NCBI GenBank assembly: GCA_028716225.1
Contig: JAQUQE010000016.1
Coordinates: 1 to 35,686, forward strand
Direction: 5' to 3'
Length of the DNA stretch: 35,686 bases
Origin: Dehalococcoidales bacterium
GTDB lineage: Bacteria > Chloroflexota > Dehalococcoidia > Dehalococcoidales > UBA5760
Positions 1,702-13,714 of the stretch are shown in pieces. The stretch's first letter is position 1. Each line of letters opens with the position of its first letter. The notes beneath the pieces were generated by a model, which was not told where the DNA came from, ran no database searches, and was given only the letters and a program-made list of their open reading frames with translations. The position numbers and the translations under genes are program-made.

Positions 1702-2958
1702 ATGAATATTCTTTTTGTACACGAGGTCGACTGGCTTAAGAAGGTGGTGCTTGAGTTCCACAACCTCTCCGAGGCCCTATCGCTTCTCAACCATCACGTC
1801 TATGCCATCGATTATGAGAGTATGTGGCAAAGAAACGGCCACTTGGGCCTGGACAGTCTCAAAACAAAGGAGATTGATGGGGTCTCCCGGGCAATTCCGG
1901 GAGCATCCGTTACCCTGAGACGCCCCGGTTTCATCCGGATCCCCGGCCTGAGCCGTCTATCGGCCGGCATCACCCACTACCGGGAAATCCAGCGGACAAT
2001 AAAGGAAAATGGTATCGATGTTATCGTGCTCTACTCCGTACCTACCAACGGATTACAGACGATACGCCTGGCCAGGAAATCCGGCATCCCCGTCGTCTTC
2101 CGGTCGATAGATATCCTGCACCGTTTGGTACCCAACGCCGCACTGCGGCCACTGACCATAACCCTGGAGAGGAAGGTCTATTCACAAGCCGATCTGGTCC
2201 TCCCCAATACTCCCCGATATTTACAGTACGTTCTGGGCATGGGAGCTGTCGAGTCAAGGGTTGAGCTGATTCTCATGCCAATTGATACCGGCATTTTCCA
2301 CCCCTCTGTTGACTGCTCCGCAATACGCCGGCAGTGGGGGTTCAGTGAGAAAGACCGGATAATCCTGTTCATCGGGACCCTGTTTCGCTTCAGCGGGCTC
2401 GATGGCTTTATCCGCAGCTTTCCCCGGGTTATCGAAAACTCGCCGGATGCCAGACTAATGATTGTCGGCGACGGTCCGCAACGACCCGAGCTCGAGAAAA
2501 TAATCACTGAACTCGGCCTGGAGAGACGGATTACCATCACCGGGTTTCAACCCTACCCGACCATGCCTCAGTTTATCAGCCTGGCCGACGTATGCATCAA
2601 CACTTTTCTTAATACTGATGCCACCAGGGATATCTTCCCGGGCAAGATTGTCCAGTATATTGCCTGCGGCAGACCGACAGTGGCTACGCCCCTGCCGGGA
2701 ATAACGACGCTGCTTCCCGGTGAATCTCACGGGGTTATTTATGCCGATAGCAGCGACGATATGGCTGGAGAAGTGGTTGGCCTGCTGAGGTCGCCTGAGC
2801 GCAGGCAGCAGATGGGACAGGCCGGGGTCCATTATGTAAAGCAGGCACACGAGCAGCAGAAGATAGCCCGCCAGTTGGAAGCGGAGCTGGAAGAAGCTAT
2901 TGAAAGGAAACGCGCGGCAACCACTACTCAAAAGGTGCGCCATGAAAATACGGGGTGA
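1702..2958 (+). CDS. Family 4 glycosyltransferase (GT-B)
   Basis: The protein has 418 residues from the ATG at 1702, where MNILFVHEVDWLKK matches the usual first beta strand of GT4 enzymes; the frame is open to 1657 but that extension looks non-conserved. The C-terminal half has the GT-B donor-binding domain: LFIGTLFRFSGLDGFI, then LMIVGDGPQRPELEKI and ITGFQPYPTMPQFISLADV. The usual E-x7-E region is modified to FPGKIVQYIACGRPTVATP, which fits the subgroup where a Lys-containing loop precedes the conserved IACG. It probably transfers a hexose from a nucleotide sugar to a growing lipid-linked glycan at the cytoplasmic face. It lies between a GT2 and an epimerase in the same direction. Donor and acceptor are unknown. 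Confidence 0.87.
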   Translation: MNILFVHEVDWLKKVVLEFHNLSEALSLLNHHVYAIDYESMWQRNGHLGLDSLKTKEIDGVSRAIPGASVTLRRPGFIRIPGLSRLSAGITHYREIQRTIKENGIDVIVLYSVPTNGLQTIRLARKSGIPVVFRSIDILHRLVPNAALRPLTITLERKVYSQADLVLPNTPRYLQYVLGMGAVESRVELILMPIDTGIFHPSVDCSAIRRQWGFSEKDRIILFIGTLFRFSGLDGFIRSFPRVIENSPDARLMIVGDGPQRPELEKIITELGLERRITITGFQPYPTMPQFISLADVCINTFLNTDATRDIFPGKIVQYIACGRPTVATPLPGITTLLPGESHGVIYADSSDDMAGEVVGLLRSPERRQQMGQAGVHYVKQAHEQQKIARQLEAELEEAIERKRAATTTQKVRHENTG

Positions 2959-3036
2959 AGTGTTAATATCGAGATTATATAAATATATGACGTGTAGTCT
3001 AGCACCATTCCATAAATATTCAGGAAAGAGGTAAAA

Positions 3037-3963
3037 ATGGCAAAAATTCTTGTAACCGGGAGTAAAGGTTCTCTGGGAAAACCACTGGTGAAGGAACTTA
3101 AAAGACGCGGCCACGAAGTCTGGCAGGTTGATTTGCAGCACCACCTGGATGATAATTACTTAAGGGCCGACATAAGTTCTTACCGGCAGATGGAACGCGT
3201 CTTCCAGCAACGCTACGATTACGTATACCATCTGGCTGCGGAGTTTGGACGGATCAACGGCGAAGAGTACTATGATACTCTGTGGCAGACCAATGTCATC
3301 GGCACCAGGAATATCCTGGAGTTGCAAAAGCAAAAGGGATTCCGGCTGATTTTCGCCTCTTCCTCGGAAATCTACGGAGAAGTGGATGCAGACATTCTCT
3401 CCGAGGAATTGCCGCTGTATCAATCTATCATTCAACTTAACGACTATGCCATCAGCAAGTGGGTGAACGAGCTGCAATGTATGAATTTCGAGAAGCGTTT
3501 CGGTTCGGAAATCGTACGGTGCCGCTTTTTTAACGCCTATGGCCCCGGTGAACATTATAACAATTATCGCAGTGTTGTCTGCCTGTTCTGTTACCGCGCT
3601 TTGCATGATCTGCCCTACCAGGTTTACCAGAACTATAACCGGGTATTTATGTATATTGATGATTTTATCCCCACGCTGGCTAATGTGGCGGACAGATTTA
3701 CCCCCGGCGAACTCTATAATATCGGGGGCCACGAATACAGAGGAGTAGAAGACCTAAGCAAGGTAATCCTCGACTATCTCGGACTGGATGATTCCAGGGT
3801 GGTCTATTTACCCCAGGATGTCCACAACGTCAAGAATAAGAGGCCCGACATCACCAGGGCACGCCAATTTCTTGGTCACGATCCCAGGATAACCTTAGAG
3901 GAGGGTATTCCCAGGACTATTGAGTGGATGCGCAAGGTTTATGCCGATGCAGTTAAGCATTAA
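3037..3963 (+). CDS. NAD-dependent sugar epimerase/dehydratase (extended SDR)
   Basis: This is a 308-residue extended short-chain dehydrogenase. The Rossmann nucleotide motif is GSKGSLG (residues 8-14), a variant of GxxGxxG. LAAEFG follows the fourth strand, FASSSEIYGE carries the catalytic Ser, and YAISK supplies Tyr137 and Lys141. The C-terminal region has LYNIGGHEYRGVEDLS and ends with a typical EEGIPRTIEWM helix. Relatives interconvert or dehydrate nucleotide sugars such as UDP-glucose, dTDP-glucose or GDP-mannose; the exact substrate cannot be read here. AGGAAAGAGG lies just before ATG 3037, a strong ribosome site. It is followed after about 50 bases by wecB, so nucleotide-sugar supply genes are grouped. 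Confidence 0.88.
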   Translation: MAKILVTGSKGSLGKPLVKELKRRGHEVWQVDLQHHLDDNYLRADISSYRQMERVFQQRYDYVYHLAAEFGRINGEEYYDTLWQTNVIGTRNILELQKQKGFRLIFASSSEIYGEVDADILSEELPLYQSIIQLNDYAISKWVNELQCMNFEKRFGSEIVRCRFFNAYGPGEHYNNYRSVVCLFCYRALHDLPYQVYQNYNRVFMYIDDFIPTLANVADRFTPGELYNIGGHEYRGVEDLSKVILDYLGLDDSRVVYLPQDVHNVKNKRPDITRARQFLGHDPRITLEEGIPRTIEWMRKVYADAVKH

Positions 3964-4014
3964 CTCTGAGTACGGGTGGTAGCTTATGATGACAGAGTCA
4001 ACGGAGATAGGTTA

Positions 4015-5163
4015 ATGCTGGTAGTCTATGTTGCTGGAGCCAGGCCAAACTTTATGAAGATCAGCCCGCTGATGCAGGCTATGAAGGACCAGGGGGATTT
4101 TGAATCCGTTCTGGTACATACCGGACAGCATTATGACCATAACATGTCCAAGATCTTCTTCCAGGATCTGGCTATTCCTGCACCGGACTTTCACCTTGGC
4201 GTCGGCTCCGGTTCGCAGGCATGGCAAACAGCGGAAATAATGGTGCGCTTCGAAAAGGTGCTGGCCGAAATAAATCCGAATTTGATTTTGGTGGTCGGTG
4301 ATGTAAATTCTACCCTCGCCTGCAGCTTGGTAGCTGCCAAACTGGGCATTCCTATCGCCCATGTTGAAGCCGGCCTCCGTAGTTTTGACCGTTCTATGCC
4401 GGAAGAAATCAATCGTCTGGTTACCGATCAACTTTCGGACTATCTCTTTACCACCTGCGTGGAGGCTAATGACAATCTTGAGCGGGAAGGCATTAGCAAG
4501 GAGAAAATCTTCTTCGTTGGCAATGTGATGGCGGACAGCCTACTGGCGAATCTAGCGGCAGCTAAACAGTCGGATATACTTAGCCGCCTCGGTATTGAGA
4601 GCAGTAAATATATCGCCATAACCTTGCACCGTCCCGGCAACGTGGAAAACCGGGAAAGGCTGGGCAATATTTTTCACGCTCTTAATACGATACAGCAGAA
4701 GCTGCCTGTCATATTCCCGGCTCACCCGCGTACACGCAAGCAAATAACGGGATTCGGCTTTAGCGAGCAAGCCAAAGAGATGGTTAACCTGCATCTGATT
4801 GAACCGCTCGGTTATCTTGACTTTCTGTCTCTTATGAGCCAGAGCAGGCTGGTACTTACCGACTCAGGCGGCATTCAAGAAGAAACCACCGTACTTGGCA
4901 TACCTTGCCTGACCCTGCGGGACAACACGGAACGCCCGGCAACTATTACCGAGGGAACCAACACAATTGTCGGCAGCGACCCGGACCGCATTGTAGGTGA
5001 AGCGATGAAGATTCTGGAGGGGTACGTAAAAGCAGGTCAGATACCAAAGCTGTGGGACGGGCGAGCCTCAGAGCGGATTGTCGCTATTCTGGAAGAGGAA
5101 GGGCGGCGGAAGATGATCAGCAAAGGCGATATAAAAGCAAAAGATACAGGAGCCCTACTATAA
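4015..5163 (+). CDS. wecB: UDP-N-acetylglucosamine 2-epimerase (non-hydrolysing)
   Basis: The 382-residue protein has the normal family length. The enzyme interconverts UDP-GlcNAc and UDP-ManNAc, supplying ManNAc for surface glycans. Visible motifs are GARPNFMK (8-15), HTGQHYD (35-41), VVGDVNST with Asp96, HVEAGLRSFDR with Glu118, MPEEINR with Glu130/131, LHRPGN, and TDSGGIQEE near the C-terminus, which together form the UDP-binding and catalytic site. The start at 4015 is chosen because GGAG lies at 4003-4006; a GTG at 3976 would add 13 unconserved residues. Its TAA shares one base with the ATG of the next glycosyltransferase, so the two are translationally coupled. No ManNAc dehydrogenase (WecC) is seen nearby, so ManNAc itself may be used. 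Confidence 0.94.
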   Translation: MLVVYVAGARPNFMKISPLMQAMKDQGDFESVLVHTGQHYDHNMSKIFFQDLAIPAPDFHLGVGSGSQAWQTAEIMVRFEKVLAEINPNLILVVGDVNSTLACSLVAAKLGIPIAHVEAGLRSFDRSMPEEINRLVTDQLSDYLFTTCVEANDNLEREGISKEKIFFVGNVMADSLLANLAAAKQSDILSRLGIESSKYIAITLHRPGNVENRERLGNIFHALNTIQQKLPVIFPAHPRTRKQITGFGFSEQAKEMVNLHLIEPLGYLDFLSLMSQSRLVLTDSGGIQEETTVLGIPCLTLRDNTERPATITEGTNTIVGSDPDRIVGEAMKILEGYVKAGQIPKLWDGRASERIVAILEEEGRRKMISKGDIKAKDTGALL

Positions 5164-6338
5164 TGAAAATCCTGCAGGTATTTGATTTCTTTTCTCCGCA
5201 TGGCGGCGGTACAGTTGATGTCGTGTACAAGCTATCCCGTGCCCTGACGAAGAGAGGACATGAAGTTACGATATATACCAGCGATTATAAATTAGACCGG
5301 GAGTATATTAACTCCCTTCCCGAAGTAAATGTACGTCTTTTTCACTGTATCTCAAGCCTAGCCTGCTTTTACCTGACGCCGGGGATGGTGATGGAAACAA
5401 AAAGACGTCTTAGAGAATTCGATATCATACATTTGCATTCCGCCCGAAGCTTCCAGAATATAGTGATACACCATTACGCTAAAAAGTATGGCATCCCCTA
5501 CGTGCTGGACACCCACGGCTCTCTCCCCCGCGCCGTTGCCGGCGAGGGGAAATTGAAGCCCATGCTCAAACGGCAGTTTGATATTGCCTTTGGCAACCGG
5601 ATATTAAGGGACGCCCACAGGCTCATTGCAGAGACTGAAGTAGGAGTTAAAGAGTATATCCAATTTGGAGCAAGTGAGGATAACGTAGCCTTAATACCCC
5701 CACCCTTCGATACGGAGTGGTTCTCTAAACTACCGCCATCCGGTCTGTTCAGAAAGAAATATGGCATCACGGAAAAGAAAATTGTCATGTTCCTGGGCAG
5801 GATAAACCGGATAAAGGGGCTTAGCTTCCTGCTCGAATCTTTTAACGAGTTAAGTAAATTGAGGGATGATGCCATTCTGGTAATAGTAGGAAATGACGAT
5901 GGCTATCAATCCACTTTAAAAAGCGAGATAGCAGAACTAAATCTATCCGATAAGGTCTTGTTCACCGGATTTCTGAGCGGTCAGGATAAACTATCGGCAC
6001 TGACAGATGCCGACGTGTTTGTTCAGACCTCCATTTATGAATATGGCACTAGAGTTACTTTTGAGGCATTATTGTGTGACACTCCCATCATAGTCACTAA
6101 AAATACGAGTGCTAGCGAGAATGTGAAGAAAATTAACGCCGGGTACTTAGTAGAATACGGTAATAAAAAGGAGTTACAGGAGGCTCTACAGCATGTATTG
6201 GACAATCCATCTGAGGCTAGATATCAAACGCGAGGGGCAAAGGAATATATAAAAGCAAATTTGTCCTTAGAGAAAGGGATTGAGAAATACGAGCATCTCT
6301 ACACCAACTGCATTGCTGCTAATAATAAGACAAAATAA
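5163..6338 (+). CDS. Family 4 glycosyltransferase (GT-B)
   Basis: The protein has 391 residues. MKILQVFDFFSPHGGGT is the glycine-rich acceptor-domain loop typical of GT4. LDTHGSLPRA lies in the middle, and the donor domain has VMFLGRINRIKGLSFLLES, ILVIVGNDDGY, LFTGFLSG and DVFVQTSIYEYGTRVTFEAL, where the last segment holds the expected glutamate pair. ATG 5163 overlaps the wecB stop codon by one base (TAATG), which fixes the start; the frame reads back to 5052 inside wecB but that part is not conserved. Codons shift toward A/T near the 3' end, compared with wecB. Likely adds a sugar to a lipid-linked intermediate; specificity is unknown. Confidence 0.88.
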   Translation: MKILQVFDFFSPHGGGTVDVVYKLSRALTKRGHEVTIYTSDYKLDREYINSLPEVNVRLFHCISSLACFYLTPGMVMETKRRLREFDIIHLHSARSFQNIVIHHYAKKYGIPYVLDTHGSLPRAVAGEGKLKPMLKRQFDIAFGNRILRDAHRLIAETEVGVKEYIQFGASEDNVALIPPPFDTEWFSKLPPSGLFRKKYGITEKKIVMFLGRINRIKGLSFLLESFNELSKLRDDAILVIVGNDDGYQSTLKSEIAELNLSDKVLFTGFLSGQDKLSALTDADVFVQTSIYEYGTRVTFEALLCDTPIIVTKNTSASENVKKINAGYLVEYGNKKELQEALQHVLDNPSEARYQTRGAKEYIKANLSLEKGIEKYEHLYTNCIAANNKTK

Positions 6339-6586: not shown

Positions 6587-7576
6587 ATGAAGATATTGAT
6601 AACCGGGGGAGCTGGATTCATCGGCAGTCATCTGTGTGAGAAGTACACTAAGGAAGACCATACCATTATCTGCCTGGATAACTTTATGAGTGGCGACTTG
6701 ATGAATATCAGGCATCTATTAAACAACCGAAACTTCAAACTAGTAGAAGGTGATATCAGAGACTTTGCCCTGCTGGAAAAGGTAATGCGTGATGTCGATG
6801 TGGTATTTCATTTGGCGGCACAGGTACATGTCGACAGGTCATATATCGAACCCGTCCTCACCTATGAAGTAAATGTAAGGGGAACACAGAATATTCTGGA
6901 AGCAGCCAGACTCTGCGATGTTAAGAAGATAGTCTTTGCCTCCACCAGTGAGGTATATGGCTCGGCCCAGTACTCACCTATCGATGAAAAGCACCCCTTG
7001 AATGCTCCCCATCCCTACGGTGCCAGTAAGATTGCCGCCGACAGGATGTGCTTTGCCTATATTCAGACCTACGGAATGAACATCTCCGTCGTCAGACTGT
7101 TCAACATCTTCGGCCAACGTCAAAGAGACGTCGGATATGGCGGCGTCATATCCATCTTTACCAGAAGAATCCTGAAGAATATGCCTCCCATTATCTATGG
7201 CGACGGTCTGCAAACAAGAGACTATACCTACGTAGATGATGCGGTCAGAGCCTATGACTCAGTCCTGAAGTATAGTGACCCGATAGCCGAGCCGATAAAT
7301 TTCGGCAGCGGTCGGGAGGAATCTATAATCGCTCTAGCCGATATGCTCATCGACCTGGCCGGCAAAAAGGGAGAAATAAGACCGATCCATGTCGAGCCCA
7401 GAATCGGAGAGGTCAAGCGCCTTATCGCCAACTCGACAAGGGCAAAGGACCTGATGGGGTGGCAACCGCAGTACAAACTGGAAGAAGGACTGAAAAAATT
7501 CGTCCAGTGGTACAAAGACTACGGATTGGAGAGAGGATTGGCATCGGATGAAATCAACACACCGCTCCGTCAATGA
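6587..7576 (+). CDS. NAD-dependent nucleotide-sugar epimerase (GalE-like extended SDR)
   Basis: This 329-residue protein has a canonical GGAGFIG NAD motif at residues 7-13, GDIRDF near 55-60, VVFHLAAQVHVDRS, FASTSEVYG with the catalytic Ser/Thr, and HPYGASK with Tyr144 and Lys148. The C-terminal half has QTRDYTYVDDAVRA, INFGSGREESI and ARAKDLMGWQPQYKLEEGL-like elements. It resembles UDP-glucose/UDP-GlcNAc 4-epimerases and UDP-glucuronate decarboxylases; the long HVDRSY and QTRDY motifs favour an epimerase, but substrate choice is not certain. GGAGG precedes ATG 6587 at the expected distance. It follows a decayed epimerase remnant and runs into an E1-alpha remnant that overlaps its last 29 bases. 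Confidence 0.9.
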   Translation: MKILITGGAGFIGSHLCEKYTKEDHTIICLDNFMSGDLMNIRHLLNNRNFKLVEGDIRDFALLEKVMRDVDVVFHLAAQVHVDRSYIEPVLTYEVNVRGTQNILEAARLCDVKKIVFASTSEVYGSAQYSPIDEKHPLNAPHPYGASKIAADRMCFAYIQTYGMNISVVRLFNIFGQRQRDVGYGGVISIFTRRILKNMPPIIYGDGLQTRDYTYVDDAVRAYDSVLKYSDPIAEPINFGSGREESIIALADMLIDLAGKKGEIRPIHVEPRIGEVKRLIANSTRAKDLMGWQPQYKLEEGLKKFVQWYKDYGLERGLASDEINTPLRQ

Positions 7577-7760: not shown

Positions 7761-7892
7761 CTACGCGATTATATAGCTCTATTGAAGCAGTTTGTCTCAG
7801 CGGAACGGATACAGGTTACCAGGATAACTGATAGTGCATGGCCGGTAAAACCATGGAACCAATGGAGTGCCGTTATTGAGGTTACCCTTTAA
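7761..7892 (+). pseudogene. Leftover C-terminal segment of an unidentified gene
   Basis: Directly after the stop of the E1-alpha fragment the same frame stays open for 43 codons and ends in TAA at 7890-7892, which overlaps the ATG of the next gene (TAATG). The encoded stretch includes RITDSAWPVKPWNQWSAVIE. It does not fit E1-alpha, and I do not recognise the family. The TAATG junction is what one expects from the true 3' end of an operon gene. The simplest reading is a deletion that joined the head of an E1-alpha gene to the tail of another gene. Confidence 0.45.
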
Positions 7893-9160
7893 TGAGTGAA
7901 ATGAAAAAGGTTCTGATCATAACCTATCTACCCTACGCCACCCCTCGCATAACGGGTCTAGCTAAATACCTTCCTGACTTTGACTGGGATCCTCTTATCA
8001 TGACTCCTCATTGTTTTAGAAGAACGGACCTGGAATTGAGGCTTATAGAAACACCTTACCGGGATGCATTTAGCTTATTGAGAAGAATACTTGGCCTGAA
8101 ACCAGGTGAGGATGACTTAAGGAGACAAGTAAAGGCACGGTTTGGCGTTAATTCCAAGAAATCATTGCTGGATTATATCTTGACTGCCGGCGGAGCGATA
8201 TTAAACTATCCGGATGCCGAAAGAGGGTGGAAATCTTTTGCTATCAGTGAAGGTAGCAAGATAATAGAGAACGAAGGCATAAACGCTATAATAAGCAGTT
8301 CCTCGCCGGTGACCAGCCATCTTATCGCTAAGGAGCTAAAAACTAGATATAAAATACCCTGGGTCGCTGACCTCCGTGATCTTTGGTCACAGAACCATAA
8401 TTATTACTACGGACCTTTAAGAAGACTTATAGATAGGAGGTTGGAACTCAAGACCTTAGCTAAGGCAGATGCTATAGTAACCGTCTCACAACCATGGGCA
8501 GAAAAGCTAAGCACCCTCCATAAGGGGAAAACAGTTTATGCCATTACCAGTGGCTTTGACCCAGCAGAAATCAATATCCCACCTGCGAGTTTAACACCTA
8601 AGTTCACGATAACTCACACGGGTAGCATCTACCCGGGAAAGCAGAACTTCTCCAAGTTTTTTACCGCTCTACGAGACCTAATCTCTGATGGGACAATAGA
8701 CCGAAATAATTTTGAGGTCAGACTCTACGGACCAGAGCAAGCATGGTTGACTTTAGAGATAAGAGAATACAGACTAGGAGACATCGTAAGACAATACGGG
8801 ATGATGTCGAGAAAGACCGCTATAGCGAAACAGAGGGAGTCTCATTTGTTATTACATTTGAGTTGGGAAGGTTGTGAGCAGGCAGGGTATTCGTATAAAC
8901 TCTTTGAATACCTCGCAGCACGAAGACCTATAATTTCTATCGGGTTGGGTAACGATATGACCGAAGAGTTGCTTAACGAAACCAAAGCTGGCGTGCATTT
9001 TAGCACTTTAGACGATATTAAGTGTGAGTTAACTAAGTTATATCAAGAGTACAGTCTAAGTGGGGAGATTTCCTATGGAGGGAATGAATCAATAATTTGT
9101 AGATATGACCACCGAGTAACAGCGATGAAATTTGTCGAAACTCTCAATAGGGTAGCATGA
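7892..9160 (+). CDS. Glycosyltransferase, GT4/GT-B type
   Basis: The 422-residue protein begins MSEMKKVLIITYLPYATPRI and has a middle segment with IISSSSPVTSHLIAKEL and WVADLRDLWSQN, a signature of GT4 enzymes of the group often named glycosyltransferase family 4 proteins in O-antigen clusters. The donor domain has ITHTGSIYPGKQNFSKF, FEVRLYGPEQ and a C-terminal YSYKLFEYLAARRPIISIG loop with the conserved Glu. It starts with ATG 7892 overlapping a TAA from the remnant upstream; GAGG lies about ten bases ahead. Base composition shifts to AT-rich from here to 11408. It precedes the PHP, ATP-grasp and PIG-L genes and may make their glycoside substrate, but donor and acceptor are not predictable. 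Confidence 0.85.
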   Translation: MSEMKKVLIITYLPYATPRITGLAKYLPDFDWDPLIMTPHCFRRTDLELRLIETPYRDAFSLLRRILGLKPGEDDLRRQVKARFGVNSKKSLLDYILTAGGAILNYPDAERGWKSFAISEGSKIIENEGINAIISSSSPVTSHLIAKELKTRYKIPWVADLRDLWSQNHNYYYGPLRRLIDRRLELKTLAKADAIVTVSQPWAEKLSTLHKGKTVYAITSGFDPAEINIPPASLTPKFTITHTGSIYPGKQNFSKFFTALRDLISDGTIDRNNFEVRLYGPEQAWLTLEIREYRLGDIVRQYGMMSRKTAIAKQRESHLLLHLSWEGCEQAGYSYKLFEYLAARRPIISIGLGNDMTEELLNETKAGVHFSTLDDIKCELTKLYQEYSLSGEISYGGNESIICRYDHRVTAMKFVETLNRVA

Positions 9161-9172
9161 TCCTTCTTAACT

Positions 9173-9853
9173 ATGGTGTCAAAAGAGATGAGAAAACAGT
9201 TTATATATAACAATATTCGATGCGGCGATTTCCACGTGCATACGAGTTATACGGATGGACAAAGTAACGTAGCCGAATACTGCGAAAGGGCTCGGCAGAA
9301 TGGATTAAAAGTGATCGCTTTTACAGAACATGTCAGAAAGATCATCACGTACAACTATCAGGAATTGTTGTCCGACATAAGAAAAGCACGAAATAAATTC
9401 GGGGACATTAAGATATTATCCGGTTGTGAGGCAAAAGTCTTAAACATATATGGTGAACTAGATGCACCAGGTGAAGTCTTAGAGCAATGTGACGTTGTTG
9501 TAGGAGTCTTTCATGGTTTTGAATGTAGTAACAGAAAGGAATATTTATCAGCATTAGTGGCAATGCTACAAAATCGCTTCGTGAGTATATGGGGACACCC
9601 GACACTATTCTTAAGCAGAAAATCGATTGAATTAGAAGAAAGAGAAATTAAGAATATAGTTGATGTTTGCATAAAAGAAGGTGTTTTTATTGAGAGAAAT
9701 ATTAAGTATGGCCTTCCCGATGCAAGGTTCATAGAGTTGGCAGTCAAAAGCGGCGCTAAGTTTATTGTCAGCAGTGATGCGCATGACGTAGACGAGCTAT
9801 TGACTACAGATAGATTAGTTGAGGAATGGAATTGGATAGACAGAATGTGCTAA
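9173..9853 (+). CDS. PHP-domain metal-dependent phosphoesterase
   Basis: The 226-residue protein is a single PHP domain. The metal-binding residues expected for a trinuclear site are all visible: HVH (His21, His23) in GDFHVHTSYTDGQ, Asp28, TEH (His53), Glu86 in SGCEAKV, His114 in VFHGF, His142 in WGHPT, and SSDAHD (Asp202, His204). PHP enzymes of this size hydrolyse phosphomonoesters, as in histidinol phosphatase HisK, or small phosphodiesters. The next gene starts inside its end (28-base overlap), so it is tightly coupled with the ATP-grasp and PIG-L genes. A role as the phosphatase in a small pathway with them is an inference. The gene is AT-rich compared with upstream cluster genes. Confidence 0.87.
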   Translation: MVSKEMRKQFIYNNIRCGDFHVHTSYTDGQSNVAEYCERARQNGLKVIAFTEHVRKIITYNYQELLSDIRKARNKFGDIKILSGCEAKVLNIYGELDAPGEVLEQCDVVVGVFHGFECSNRKEYLSALVAMLQNRFVSIWGHPTLFLSRKSIELEEREIKNIVDVCIKEGVFIERNIKYGLPDARFIELAVKSGAKFIVSSDAHDVDELLTTDRLVEEWNWIDRMC

Positions 9854-10800
9854 TCCCCGGTGCTGGTGGTGCAGCTGGTCTAGGAGCAATAAAATCACTA
9901 CGACTTTGTGGTTTTGAAGGTAGGATAGTAGCGACAGACGCAAATGCTCTTTCTTCTGGTTTATATTTGGCAGACTGTAGCTATGTTGTGCCATTTGCTG
10001 ATAACTACTCCTTTATTACAGAAGCAACCAAGATCATTGAAAATGAACGAATAGATACAATTATGCCAACTTCTGGCTCCGATCTTATACCTTACTCGAA
10101 AAACAAAAAGTCTATTGAGGAAAAAGGTATCATCGTTGCTATGAGCGATTACCAAGTAATTGAAAGTTGTTTGGATAAATTAAGGTTTTATCACCAGCTG
10201 AAGAACAAATTCAATTTACCTTATACAACTACCGATCAATCCGAGATTAATGCTTTCCCCTGTATAGTCAAACCTATTTGGGGAAAGGGGAGCAAGAATG
10301 TATTTACATGTCATTCCAAAGCGAATTTAGAGAACATTCTATTGAAAAATCATGATATGGTAATTCAAGAATATCTCCCAGGCAAAGAATACAGCATTGA
10401 CGTATTATCTGACCTAGAAGGTAAACCTCTATTAGCAATACCAAGGGAGCGAATTGAGGTAAAAGCAGGCATAAGTTTTAAGAGTAGAATAGTCTTGGAT
10501 AATGTAATAGCGAAAGAATGCTTACGAATAGCGGAGTGCTTATCAATAAAAGGACCATCGTGTGTCCAAATGAGATGTGATAAGAAGGGGAAACCTAGAG
10601 TTGTGGAGGTTAATCCTCGAATTGGTGGCGGTACAATATTGACTACATACGCAGGGGTAAACTTTCCTGAACTCGTTCTGGCAATGGCCAGTGCCAGTAG
10701 TTACAAAATACCAAAGCTAAAAGAACTTAAGGAGATAACAATGTTAAGGTATTATGAGGAGGTAATTCTGGACGCGAAAGGTAGAGTGATGAAGTTATGA
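9826..10800 (+). CDS. ATP-grasp carboxylate-amine ligase-like protein
   Basis: The 324-residue protein has an N-terminal Rossmann-like pre-ATP-grasp part with VLIPGAGGAAGLGAIKSL, similar to CarB-type ligases. The ATP-grasp core has FPCIVKPIWGKGSKNVF with Lys149 for ATP phosphate, VIQEYLPGKEYSIDVL, then VEVNPRIGGGTILT with Asn263 and Arg265 for Mg-ATP. The family joins a carboxylate, activated as acyl phosphate, to an amine or thiol nucleophile. It overlaps the PHP gene by 28 bases and its stop shares bases with the next ATG (ATGA at 10797-10800). Because the neighbour is a deacetylase that would expose a sugar amine, an amino-acid or carboxylate ligation to that amine is a reasonable guess, not shown by the sequence. 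Confidence 0.86.
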   Translation: MELDRQNVLIPGAGGAAGLGAIKSLRLCGFEGRIVATDANALSSGLYLADCSYVVPFADNYSFITEATKIIENERIDTIMPTSGSDLIPYSKNKKSIEEKGIIVAMSDYQVIESCLDKLRFYHQLKNKFNLPYTTTDQSEINAFPCIVKPIWGKGSKNVFTCHSKANLENILLKNHDMVIQEYLPGKEYSIDVLSDLEGKPLLAIPRERIEVKAGISFKSRIVLDNVIAKECLRIAECLSIKGPSCVQMRCDKKGKPRVVEVNPRIGGGTILTTYAGVNFPELVLAMASASSYKIPKLKELKEITMLRYYEEVILDAKGRVMKL

Positions 10801-11408
10801 AAATTTTAGCCTTTGGCGCGCATCCTGATGACGTAGAAGTTGGCATGGGAGGAACTATAGCTAAATATGCAAAAGCTGGGCATGAAGTGTTTATTGTAGT
10901 AACTTCCATACCCAATCGAAAGGAGGTAAGACGGAGGGAGGCTATGAAGTCAGCAAGAATATTGGGTGCTGAGCTAATAGTCTTAGATATCGAACCTGAG
11001 AAGCTAATATTCGATCGTGAACTCGTGCGTAGGTTTGATGAGGTACTCATGGAGTATTTGCCTGATATCACTTACACTCATTGGAACCACGACTCCCATC
11101 AAGACCACGTAGCAGTTGCAAATGCTGCAATTGCGGCGACCAGGGGAAATAATTGCTCCCTGTATATGTATGAGCAGACTATTCCGGGTGGTATTGTCCC
11201 CTACGGCTTCATGTTACAATCCTTTGTAGACATCTCAGAAGTAATTGACCTTAAGATAGACAGTATTAGTGAGCACAAATCACAGGTCAAGTTAAACGGG
11301 GAATGGTGGCTGTACGGGATAAGAGGTAGAGCCATGTATCACGGTTACCAAATCAATGTTAAATTCTCTGAAGCATTTGAGGTAGTAAGGGAGATTAAAC
11401 AGATATAA
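10797..11408 (+). CDS. PIG-L family deacetylase
   Basis: The 203-residue protein has the PIG-L zinc site: GAHPDDVE with His9, Asp11 and Asp12 near the N-terminus, and HWNHDSHQDHVAV with His104 later. By family knowledge (MshB, BshB, PIG-L) these residues bind zinc and deacetylate N-acetylglucosamine linked to an alcohol, lipid or glycoside. It starts at an ATGA overlap with the ATP-grasp gene and so is translationally coupled. GlcNAc-type substrates fit the presence of wecB and several glycosyltransferases upstream. It is the last AT-rich gene; the next gene returns to the base composition of the earlier cluster. Exact substrate is unknown. Confidence 0.9.
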   Translation: MKILAFGAHPDDVEVGMGGTIAKYAKAGHEVFIVVTSIPNRKEVRRREAMKSARILGAELIVLDIEPEKLIFDRELVRRFDEVLMEYLPDITYTHWNHDSHQDHVAVANAAIAATRGNNCSLYMYEQTIPGGIVPYGFMLQSFVDISEVIDLKIDSISEHKSQVKLNGEWWLYGIRGRAMYHGYQINVKFSEAFEVVREIKQI

Positions 11409-11470
11409 ATCCCACAAGTCATTCTTTATAGATACTCTTCTGATTTGCATGGATTTCTAAGGAGATGATA

Positions 11471-13714
11471 ATGACTGGGAGAAGTATTACCACCTCACCG
11501 GATAAATGGTTCGGCCCGATAGCAGCGGTGGTTGCCATCACCAGCATATCGGTAGTCCTGGACATTCCCGTCTTAAAACAGCTCTCCGGTTTTATCTTTC
11601 TAACTTTCGTTCCAGGCTTTCTTTTCCTCTCTATACTCAAGCTGAACAGGCTCGGAATAGCTGAGAAACTGGCTCTCTCGGTAGGTTTAAGCATCGCCTT
11701 CACCATGCTCTTCGGCTGGGCATTTAACAGCTCAGCGTTTGCCCTTGGCGACACCAAGCCTCTTGGAACCAACACCTTATTGATATCATTCAGCACCGCC
11801 ATTATTATTATGGCCGTCATTGCTTATGCGATAAACGGGGAATCAACTTTCGCCAACCTTGTTCCCAGACTGACCGTAAGAGAGAAGCTGTTCCTGATTG
11901 TACCATCGGTATTCCCCCTGCTCAGCATATTCGGTATGTACACTATGGAGGCAACCTCAAGTAATTTATTCTTAATCCTCCTGCTCTTCCTGATCCTAGC
12001 CTATATCGTCTTTTTATCTTTTTACCACCGGCAGGCATCGGAAAGGATAGTCCCCATCGCCATATTACTGATCAGTATCTCGCTGGTGCTTATGCTGGCG
12101 CTGCGGTCAAGCCATATCCTCGGTTCCGACATTCACGAACTGTATTACCTCTTTCAAACCACTCTACAGGAAGGGCACTGGAGAATAGTCGGTTACGGAA
12201 CGCTGGATGCCTGTTTGAGCGCCTCTATCCTGCCCGCAATTTATCAGTCATTTCTGAACATCAACCCGGAGTACCTGTTCAAACTCATCACCCCCCTTCT
12301 TTTCTCCGTTTCTCCGCTGGTGATATATATTACCGCACGGAAATACATCGGCAGTATTTACGCTCTGGTAGGCTCTTCACTATTTATGGCACAAACTGCC
12401 TTCTTATGGACAACAGGAGCCAACACCACCAACCTTGCCATTCTCTTCTTCGCCATCGTGGTTATGGTTATGTTCCACCGGGATATCGGCGAGCTTAACA
12501 AGAGGATCCTATTTATCGTTTTTGCAGTCGCTACCATTGTGTCACACTACGGAACAGCGTATATCTTCTTCTTTGTCCTACTGCTTACCTGGTTGGGAAT
12601 AAAAATAGTACCCATAGTACTTAAGAGAAAGACCAGCACCTCGCCCGAAAACAACATCATCATAGAAGACCACTCATCAACTCCACCAGGGGTGAGTAAC
12701 ATCTCGAACAACAGCATCGCGACATCTCCTTCACCGGACCTCGGCGCTTCTCACTCTTATCTACGAAAGGGCGTAACAGCAGCTACGGTAACACTATTCT
12801 TCGTTATGCTCTTTTTTTGGTACAGCCAGGCAACTCAGGGGGCCTTTACTGCCGGCGTGACATTTATTGAAACGACCTTCGCCAATCTACACAACTGGTT
12901 TCTGCTCGAGTCCAGAGGTTCTACCATTACCACCGCCGTGGGGGAGGAAATAGCCTCTATTCCGCAGAAGATACGGCTGCTTTTCTCCTGGCTTACCCTA
13001 GCCCTCATCGCAACAGGCGTATTGAGCACCATAGTAAGATACAGGAGGACTATTGCCACCCGCCGGCCTGTAGAGAACAAGCCTGATTATTTACGTTCCC
13101 GGTTCGAGATGGAATACATCATCTTAACCCTAGCATGCAGCCTGATACTGGTAATTACCGTTATCGTCCCCTATGTATCACAGGGTTATTCCATGGAGAG
13201 GACATATTTCCAGGCACTGGCTGTCCTGTCTCCTTTCTTCGTCATCGGGGGCATTACGATAGCCAGGTGGCTTAGAGCAAGAGCCTACGCGATTGCCCTC
13301 CTCGTGCTAGTACCTTTCTTTATGTGCACTACCGGTACGATGTACCAGGTGTTTGACCAACCAGTCTCAATGGTCCTCAACTCGGCAGGCAGTGAATATC
13401 AGCTCTGGTACGTGCACAACCAGGACTCTCACGCCGCCCAATGGCTAGGCCAGCATACCAAAGGGCAGGAGCGCATATACTCCGGATCATGGCCGGGACC
13501 GCGTGTGCTGGAAAGTCAGGGCATGATAGAAAGGAATCGCACATTCATAGACCGGGAGATTCCACTCGCGGATTGGGATCCCGCCAGTATACACGGAAAT
13601 ATTTACCTTAGATACACTGACATTACTCTCAATAGCGTTGTAGAAGAACACCCGGAAATATTTGTTGACAAGAGCAAAATCTATACTACCAATGGCTCAG
13701 TGGTATACAGGTAA
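11471..13714 (+). CDS. DUF2206-type polytopic membrane protein
   Basis: This protein of about 747 residues has many hydrophobic segments. The N-terminal part, with FIFLTFVPGFLFLSIL and AEKLALSVGLSIAF, resembles the membrane region of DUF1616/DUF2206 proteins. A GT-C-like architecture follows: an ordered series of helices with SSHILGSDIHELYYLFQ early on, a polar Ser/Thr/Pro-rich cytoplasmic or external loop near residues 390-430, further helices, and an extracytoplasmic tail ending in IYTTNGSVVYR. DUF2206 proteins are uncharacterised but sit in surface-glycan loci of archaea and Chloroflexota and may be glycosyl- or oligosaccharyl-transferase-like. ATG 11471 is chosen over 11465 because GGAG is at 11461-11464, six bases away. 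It closes the cluster. Confidence 0.82.
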   Translation: MTGRSITTSPDKWFGPIAAVVAITSISVVLDIPVLKQLSGFIFLTFVPGFLFLSILKLNRLGIAEKLALSVGLSIAFTMLFGWAFNSSAFALGDTKPLGTNTLLISFSTAIIIMAVIAYAINGESTFANLVPRLTVREKLFLIVPSVFPLLSIFGMYTMEATSSNLFLILLLFLILAYIVFLSFYHRQASERIVPIAILLISISLVLMLALRSSHILGSDIHELYYLFQTTLQEGHWRIVGYGTLDACLSASILPAIYQSFLNINPEYLFKLITPLLFSVSPLVIYITARKYIGSIYALVGSSLFMAQTAFLWTTGANTTNLAILFFAIVVMVMFHRDIGELNKRILFIVFAVATIVSHYGTAYIFFFVLLLTWLGIKIVPIVLKRKTSTSPENNIIIEDHSSTPPGVSNISNNSIATSPSPDLGASHSYLRKGVTAATVTLFFVMLFFWYSQATQGAFTAGVTFIETTFANLHNWFLLESRGSTITTAVGEEIASIPQKIRLLFSWLTLALIATGVLSTIVRYRRTIATRRPVENKPDYLRSRFEMEYIILTLACSLILVITVIVPYVSQGYSMERTYFQALAVLSPFFVIGGITIARWLRARAYAIALLVLVPFFMCTTGTMYQVFDQPVSMVLNSAGSEYQLWYVHNQDSHAAQWLGQHTKGQERIYSGSWPGPRVLESQGMIERNRTFIDREIPLADWDPASIHGNIYLRYTDITLNSVVEEHPEIFVDKSKIYTTNGSVVYR

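Follow-up and report, generated by a model that had tools for sequence, protein, structure and literature searches.

The closest known counterparts of the gene cassette analysed here are found in thiol-cofactor and surface-glycan biosynthesis. The cassette lies on a 35,686-nucleotide stretch of DNA from a Dehalococcoidales bacterium (GenBank assembly GCA_028716225.1, contig JAQUQE010000016.1; G000:C16), referred to here as the window, and encodes a GT4-type glycosyltransferase (GT), a PHP phosphoesterase, an ATP-grasp ligase and a PIG-L family de-N-acetylase. Mycothiol and bacillithiol synthesis share with it a GT4 enzyme, a PIG-L deacetylase and the ligation of an amino acid to the free amine of GlcN; MshC is a CysRS-like protein and MshD a GNAT protein. 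The window differs from these pathways in having an ATP-grasp protein instead of MshC or BshC, in its surface-glycan setting, and in the lack of a member-level match for its GT4 or PIG-L.

Other counterparts act on surface sugars. For the Wbp/Vim pathway of Porphyromonas gingivalis and Tannerella forsythia, the sections of the source cited here describe 2-N-seryl and 2-N-glycyl linking sugars, with VimE as a putative deacetylase that removes the C-2 acetyl group and VimA as the transferase that determines whether Ser or Gly is added (PMC7468200). On the account in those sections, Ser or Gly is thought to take the place of the C-2 acetyl group on an amino sugar, and the deacetylase and aminoacyl transferase genes are adjacent; however, that pathway uses VimE, a CE4 deacetylase, and VimA, a FemAB/GNAT-like protein, whereas the window has PIG-L, ATP-grasp and PHP. 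The cited part of another source describes O-antigens with N-acetylglycyl or N-acetylalanyl amino sugars, Escherichia coli O121 being the N-acetylglycyl source (PMC3210612), and excerpts from Bordetella papers predict that mid-locus O-antigen genes modify the terminal sugar. The PRK12767-type ATP-grasp and HAD pairs of polysaccharide loci resemble the window in their broad ATP-grasp group and adjacent phosphatase, but the window phosphatase is a PHP protein and stands in an operon with PIG-L. No description of the cassette was found in the literature covered, in parts of which ATP-grasps are mentioned in other gene neighbourhoods (PMC4000134, PMC12419801); surveys of ATP-grasp amidoligases lie outside that coverage, and novelty in print is not established.

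Conservation of the gene cassette

The plus strand of the window carries a surface-glycan locus in the order GT2, GT4, SDR, WecB, GT4, SDR, GT4, PHP, ATP-grasp, PIG-L and DUF2206. Within it, a divergent GT4 (7892-9160), a standalone PHP phosphoesterase (9173-9853), an ATP-grasp ligase (9826-10800) and a PIG-L de-N-acetylase (10797-11408) are encoded by four intact, tightly packed open reading frames (ORFs) in the same direction, with a gap of 12 nt between GT4 and PHP and overlaps of 28 nt between PHP and ATP-grasp and 4 nt between ATP-grasp and PIG-L. The initial annotation had described four genes at 7892-11408, the last three overlapping and the GT4 12 bases ahead, and our analysis reproduced these coordinates and spacings. 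We interpret the cassette as probably a module that de-N-acetylates and re-N-acylates an amino sugar belonging to a surface glycan; in its most likely form, this is a strip-and-recap system to which the GT4 is loosely attached.

PHP, ATP-grasp and PIG-L constitute a real conserved module, beyond chance, because the three genes are contiguous in four distant loci (L142, L147, L148 and L149). G407 is the genome with the Methanosarcinaceae locus L004; a PHP search of 236 genomes from its class gave four best matches separated from the rest (E 1.6e-44 to 2.1e-46, against 3.5e-23 for the next match; among the matches listed, ORFs from that one on were mostly PolX-sized). PIG-L, ATP-grasp and PHP are contiguous and co-directional in three of these four archaeal loci (L122/L147, L123/L148 and L124/L149; gene identities checked by Pfam in L147 and L148); upstream of the fourth (L125/L150), the contig ends after 177 nt. 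On a plasmid of Halobaculum sp. XH14 (L142), PIG-L, ATP-grasp and PHP have 4-nt overlaps as annotated in the record. The trio elsewhere is permuted relative to the order PHP, ATP-grasp, PIG-L of the window, and in L148 a co-directional GT4 stands 43 nt ahead of it and WecB after it. The four-gene order put forward in the initial annotation recurs in part: its last three genes are found together in other genomes, in one locus also with a GT4, but in seven other GT4 loci (L115-L121, from 241 phylum genomes) PIG-L, ATP-grasp and PHP were not seen in the short stretches examined, which suggests only a loose attachment of the GT4 to the module.

The closest ATP-grasps found all adjoin PIG-L: those of L004 (58% identity, 4-nt overlap with PIG-L), L056 (47%, 4 nt), L109 (45%, 8 nt) and L110 (44%, 4 nt), the first two reached through PIG-L and the last two through the ATP-grasp itself. 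ATP-grasp and PIG-L, in some cases with HAD, also occur on the IMG/VR viral contigs L056, L059/L060/L062, L077, L109 and L110, the gene order in L059/L060/L062 being ATP-grasp, HAD, PIG-L. L056 ends in phage tail genes downstream of its ATP-grasp/PIG-L pair, which suggests phage-borne genes for sugar re-acylation. A small protein encoded upstream in L109 and L110, with a 4-nt overlap with ATP-grasp, is weakly similar to the EcbF/BcbF capsule phosphatases and has no Pfam match. The first ATP-grasp search of viral contigs gave no matches and PHP was not found in viral contigs; INPHARED phages gave only seven weak ATP-grasp matches (24-27% identity) and seven weak PHP matches.

Exchange of the enzymes beside PIG-L

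A genome of the same genus (G001, 63% complete) carries at L027 a GT4 (59%) in the equivalent place, a GNAT protein, WbqC, PIG-L (56%) and DUF2206 (59%), and here GNAT and WbqC occupy the place of PHP and ATP-grasp between GT4 and PIG-L. The initial annotation had reasoned that independent occurrence of the genes in relatives would speak against a pathway, and this is partly what is found, as the sister genome keeps GT4 and PIG-L without PHP and ATP-grasp.

We surveyed the neighbours of PIG-L in 75 loci retrieved through PIG-L searches. At a distance of no more than 700 bp we identified ATP-grasp in nine loci, WbqC in nine (L027, L014, L017, L019, L020, L036, L057, L061 and L065), a hexapeptide transferase in eight (the methanogen loci L005-L011, which are close relatives of one another, and L083) and a formyltransferase in three (L098, L101 and L102), and these sets do not overlap; the PIG-L neighbours in the GC-rich loci L012, L013, L015 and L018 are unresolved. 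A position test was applied to clusters formed at 80% PIG-L identity, with a crude null, with profiles built partly from loci found through PIG-L, and with several loci of only about 3.6-5.9 kb, where nearness comes easily; under these terms, ATP-grasp was near in 7 of 9 clusters with a match (null mean 3.44, p 0.005), WbqC in 8 of 11 (2.95, p 0.001) and formyltransferase in 2 of 2 (0.40, p 0.04), and the results were non-significant for hexapeptide transferase (2 of 3, p 0.075) and HAD (1 of 1, p 0.17). Taken together, the exchange in the sister genome and the other PIG-L neighbours indicate that the deacetylase is constant and the candidate N-acylating enzyme variable.

The gene wbqC takes its name from the O121 cluster. 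WbqC (PF08889), a protein common in O-antigen loci and of putative function, takes the ATP-grasp place beside PIG-L in the sister genome and is found beside PIG-L elsewhere too, but its predicted fold is unlike that of ATP-grasp. We compared an AlphaFold prediction of the L020 WbqC, based on five sequences (pLDDT 86), with known structures using VIA-align: Bacillus subtilis BshC (4wbd) ranked first (Z 13.8, rmsd 3.4, 219 of 227 residues aligned), class I LysRS (1irx) second (Z 12.7, rmsd 2.5, 172 aligned), and the others reached at most 9.2. Since the BshC and LysRS scores are close, the safe statement is that the predicted fold is BshC/class-I-synthetase-like, with BshC covering nearly the whole chain, which is a statement of fold and not of function. 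A WbqC profile of only five sequences matched no BshC chain in the PDB up to E 10. The scheme of the initial annotation, deacetylation followed by ATP-grasp acylation of the free amine in a small pathway, gains support from the conserved trio and from the GNAT and WbqC exchange, the WbqC model being nearest to BshC.

The cassette could instead combine two independent functions, with PHP and ATP-grasp modifying one sugar and PIG-L acting elsewhere in the locus, where the amine would be left free or re-acylated otherwise. PHP and ATP-grasp have a GC content of 38.5%, the lowest of 18 window genes measured (window 49.9%), which fits a pair acquired together; PIG-L has 42.8%, and PIG-L and GT4 each lie at 42.8-42.9%. 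This GC difference favours separate functions, as do a Sinorhizobium PHP and ATP-grasp pair without PIG-L and the many PIG-L loci, the majority, without ATP-grasp. We nevertheless consider separate functions rather unlikely, given that the trio is contiguous in four other loci in permuted order and that viral contigs retain an overlapping HAD-like gene, ATP-grasp and PIG-L.

Relation to thiol and glycan pathways

The PIG-L protein belongs to PF02585 (81.5 bits; cut-off 28.2) and is the only match to this family in the 2.64-Mb assembly G000. It has the AHPDD and HQDH motifs, residues H9, D11, D12, H101 and H104 are invariant across 21 aligned sequences, and no signal peptide was seen on inspection by eye. 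In sequence it is nearest to the LmbE-related structure 2ixd (E 7e-21) and to a BshB1-type structure, but it falls below the cut-offs for MshB (TIGR03445; 29.2 bits vs 224.35), BshB1 (TIGR04001; 89.2 vs 182.5) and, likewise, BshB2. The GT4 matches PF13579 with 29.8 bits (cut-off 29.7) and has no NCBIfam match, being neither MshA-type (TIGR03449) nor BshA-type (TIGR03999). BshC (PF10079) was found in none of 151 phylum genomes, G000 included, and the controls Bacillus subtilis, Thermus composti and Deinobacterium chartae were matched. Membership in the mycothiol or bacillithiol pathway was rejected on the profile cut-offs for GT4 and PIG-L and the lack of BshC; the comparison with these pathways made in the initial annotation holds as an analogy.

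These results bear on a second alternative, a soluble thiol-like glycoside, for which the GT4 would glycosylate a phospho-acceptor, PHP would dephosphorylate it, PIG-L would deacetylate it and ATP-grasp would add cysteine or another amino acid. The enzyme order follows mycothiol and bacillithiol logic, and the sister locus contains mycothiol-like classes (GT4, PIG-L, a ligase with a class-I-synthetase-like fold, and GNAT). Apart from the missing pathway members, however, the genes are part of a glycan locus that also encodes other GTs, epimerases and DUF2206, and a ligase that is exchanged between sister genomes is more in keeping with variable surface glycans than with a conserved redox thiol. 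We therefore judge this alternative to be quite improbable, and a surface-glycan product likelier than a soluble thiol; of the two products suggested initially, a soluble metabolite or a surface decoration, the surroundings favour the second.

A PIG-L gene of Parabacteroides distasonis (L146, 5983-6618), whose product is 29% identical to the window PIG-L, lies within a vim-like gene order. An exosortase link for an amino-sugar anchor, an idea from the Wbp/Vim paper, was also considered and rejected, as PF09721 was found neither in G000 nor in G001, which is 63% complete.

The ATP-grasp ligase and the adjoining PHP protein

The ATP-grasp protein, a PF15632/PRK12767-like predicted carboxylate-amine ligase, belongs to PF15632 (87.1 bits; cut-off 29.1) and misses the cut-offs of the PRK12767 carbamoyl phosphate synthase-like models (NF009402, 190.9 vs 218 bits; NF009405, 189.8 vs 390). 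The ATP/Mg residues K118, K149, E188, E261, N263 and R265 are invariant across 16 sequences. The best structural match of its predicted model (pLDDT 90.7) is 2pn1 (Z 32.1, rmsd 2.2, 283 aligned), a record titled carbamoylphosphate synthase large subunit; biotin carboxylase and the amino-acid ligase PylC follow at about Z 28 (PylC 28.3), with PurK near PylC, and rows within Z 1 of one another are ties, so that PylC is not singled out.

The PHP protein belongs to PF02811 (59.8 bits; cut-off 26.4) and has the HxH, E, H, H and DxH residues of its family: H23, H53, E86, H114, H142, D202 and H204 are invariant across eight sequences, and the window protein also has the HxH residue H21. It is nearest to PolX C-domains and YcdX, and is 40-41% identical to the archaeal PHPs that adjoin ATP-grasp and PIG-L. 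In a survey of 16 other ATP-grasp loci (excluding the window and L004; L049 and L051 form one region), HAD adjoins ATP-grasp in 11, L051 has a YfcE-like phosphoesterase, HAD is one gene off in L050, and none was seen in three. That a phosphatase accompanies ATP-grasps suggests that the step served by PHP is that of ATP-grasp rather than that of the GT. The initial annotation had placed dephosphorylation directly after glycosyl transfer, and this order is not favoured, as HAD and YfcE-like proteins seem to tie the phosphatase to ATP-grasp instead. In the L049/L051 region (G455:C6), a WbmS-like polysaccharide deacetylase lies between two ATP-grasps, preceded by the YfcE-like phosphoesterase and followed by HAD; this is a second type of deacetylase within a similar kind of gene set.

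A last alternative, that PHP hydrolyses another bond and is no pathway phosphatase, and that ATP-grasp forms a carbamoyl-phosphate-like or carboxylated product instead of an amide, would agree with the NCBIfam naming of ATP-grasp relatives as carbamoyl phosphate synthase-like and with the rank of biotin carboxylases and PurK near PylC, but it is very improbable in view of the three unrelated phosphoesterase types (PHP, HAD and YfcE-like) that adjoin these ATP-grasps.

Proposed pathway

The analysis establishes the genes with their intact conserved residues, the linkage of the trio, the exchange with GNAT and WbqC in a sister genome, and the predicted folds; the reactions and their sequence, the substrate and acid involved and delivery to the surface are inferred, as follows. 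The GT4 or its neighbours would supply a GlcNAc- or ManNAc-type sugar, from which PIG-L would remove the N-acetyl group in the cytosol. A carboxylic acid, probably an amino acid or a small hydroxy acid, would be activated by ATP-grasp at the expense of ATP and joined to the freed amine as an amide. PHP would remove a phosphate, with the acyl donor or its product a likelier source than a GT acceptor, and the modified sugar would then enter the glycan.

It is important to consider several observations that weigh against this re-acylation pathway. PIG-L was present in none of the 16 other ATP-grasp loci surveyed, most ATP-grasp relatives being without it, and in 46 of the 75 PIG-L loci no member of the four N-acylating families lies within 700 bp. 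L004 has the ATP-grasp/PIG-L pair without an adjoining PHP, and the archaeal trios with PHP have ATP-grasps that share only about 25% identity with that of the window and may thus use other substrates. Sinorhizobium plasmids pair PHP with ATP-grasp (4-nt overlap in L143), PIG-L not being seen in the stretches examined. The likeness of WbqC to BshC is structural only, the L020 model had no Foldseek match at E<=0.001, and WbqC also occurs without PIG-L, including at a second locus of G000.

Two of these settings are described further. On the Sinorhizobium/Ensifer plasmids (L143, L144 and L145), PHP and ATP-grasp, or formyltransferase, ATP-grasp and HAD, lie near sulfate-activation genes. The WbqC at the second locus of G000 (L113, 6577-7287, on G000:C1) has neighbours that look by eye like SpsF, PseG and NeuB, of nonulosonate type, and no PIG-L; the same nonulosonate-like locus has a 252-aa ORF without a Pfam match (2922-3680).

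Neighbouring genes

The remaining genes described here are all on the plus strand of the window. DUF2206 (11465-13714), a membrane protein assigned by Pfam, starts 56 nt 3' of PIG-L, has its 59% counterpart as neighbour in the sister genome, and may have a GT-C-like role. Upstream, the glycan-locus context comprises a UDP-GlcNAc 2-epimerase (WecB, 3976-5163), as also found alongside the L148 trio, a further GT4 (5052-6338, the longest ORF, whose real start is probably downstream, beyond the WecB stop) and an SDR-type NDP-sugar epimerase/dehydratase (6587-7576).

Implications for surface-sugar loci

We propose more tentatively, at slightly less than even confidence, that strip-and-recap is general in surface-sugar loci, with PIG-L deacetylating the sugar and one of several unrelated N-acylating enzymes recapping it, WbqC being a BshC-fold aminoacyl ligase exchangeable with PHP and ATP-grasp. 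If this holds, thiol-cofactor and surface-glycan chemistry would share a ligase fold, and the resemblance in fold between WbqC and BshC would tie redox-thiol synthesis to glycan modification. PRK12767-type ATP-grasps, standalone PHP proteins and WbqC, which often go unnamed in surface-polysaccharide loci, would gain a testable function, and the amino-sugar acyl diversity of bacteria, archaea and phages would be tied to a few exchangeable enzymes.

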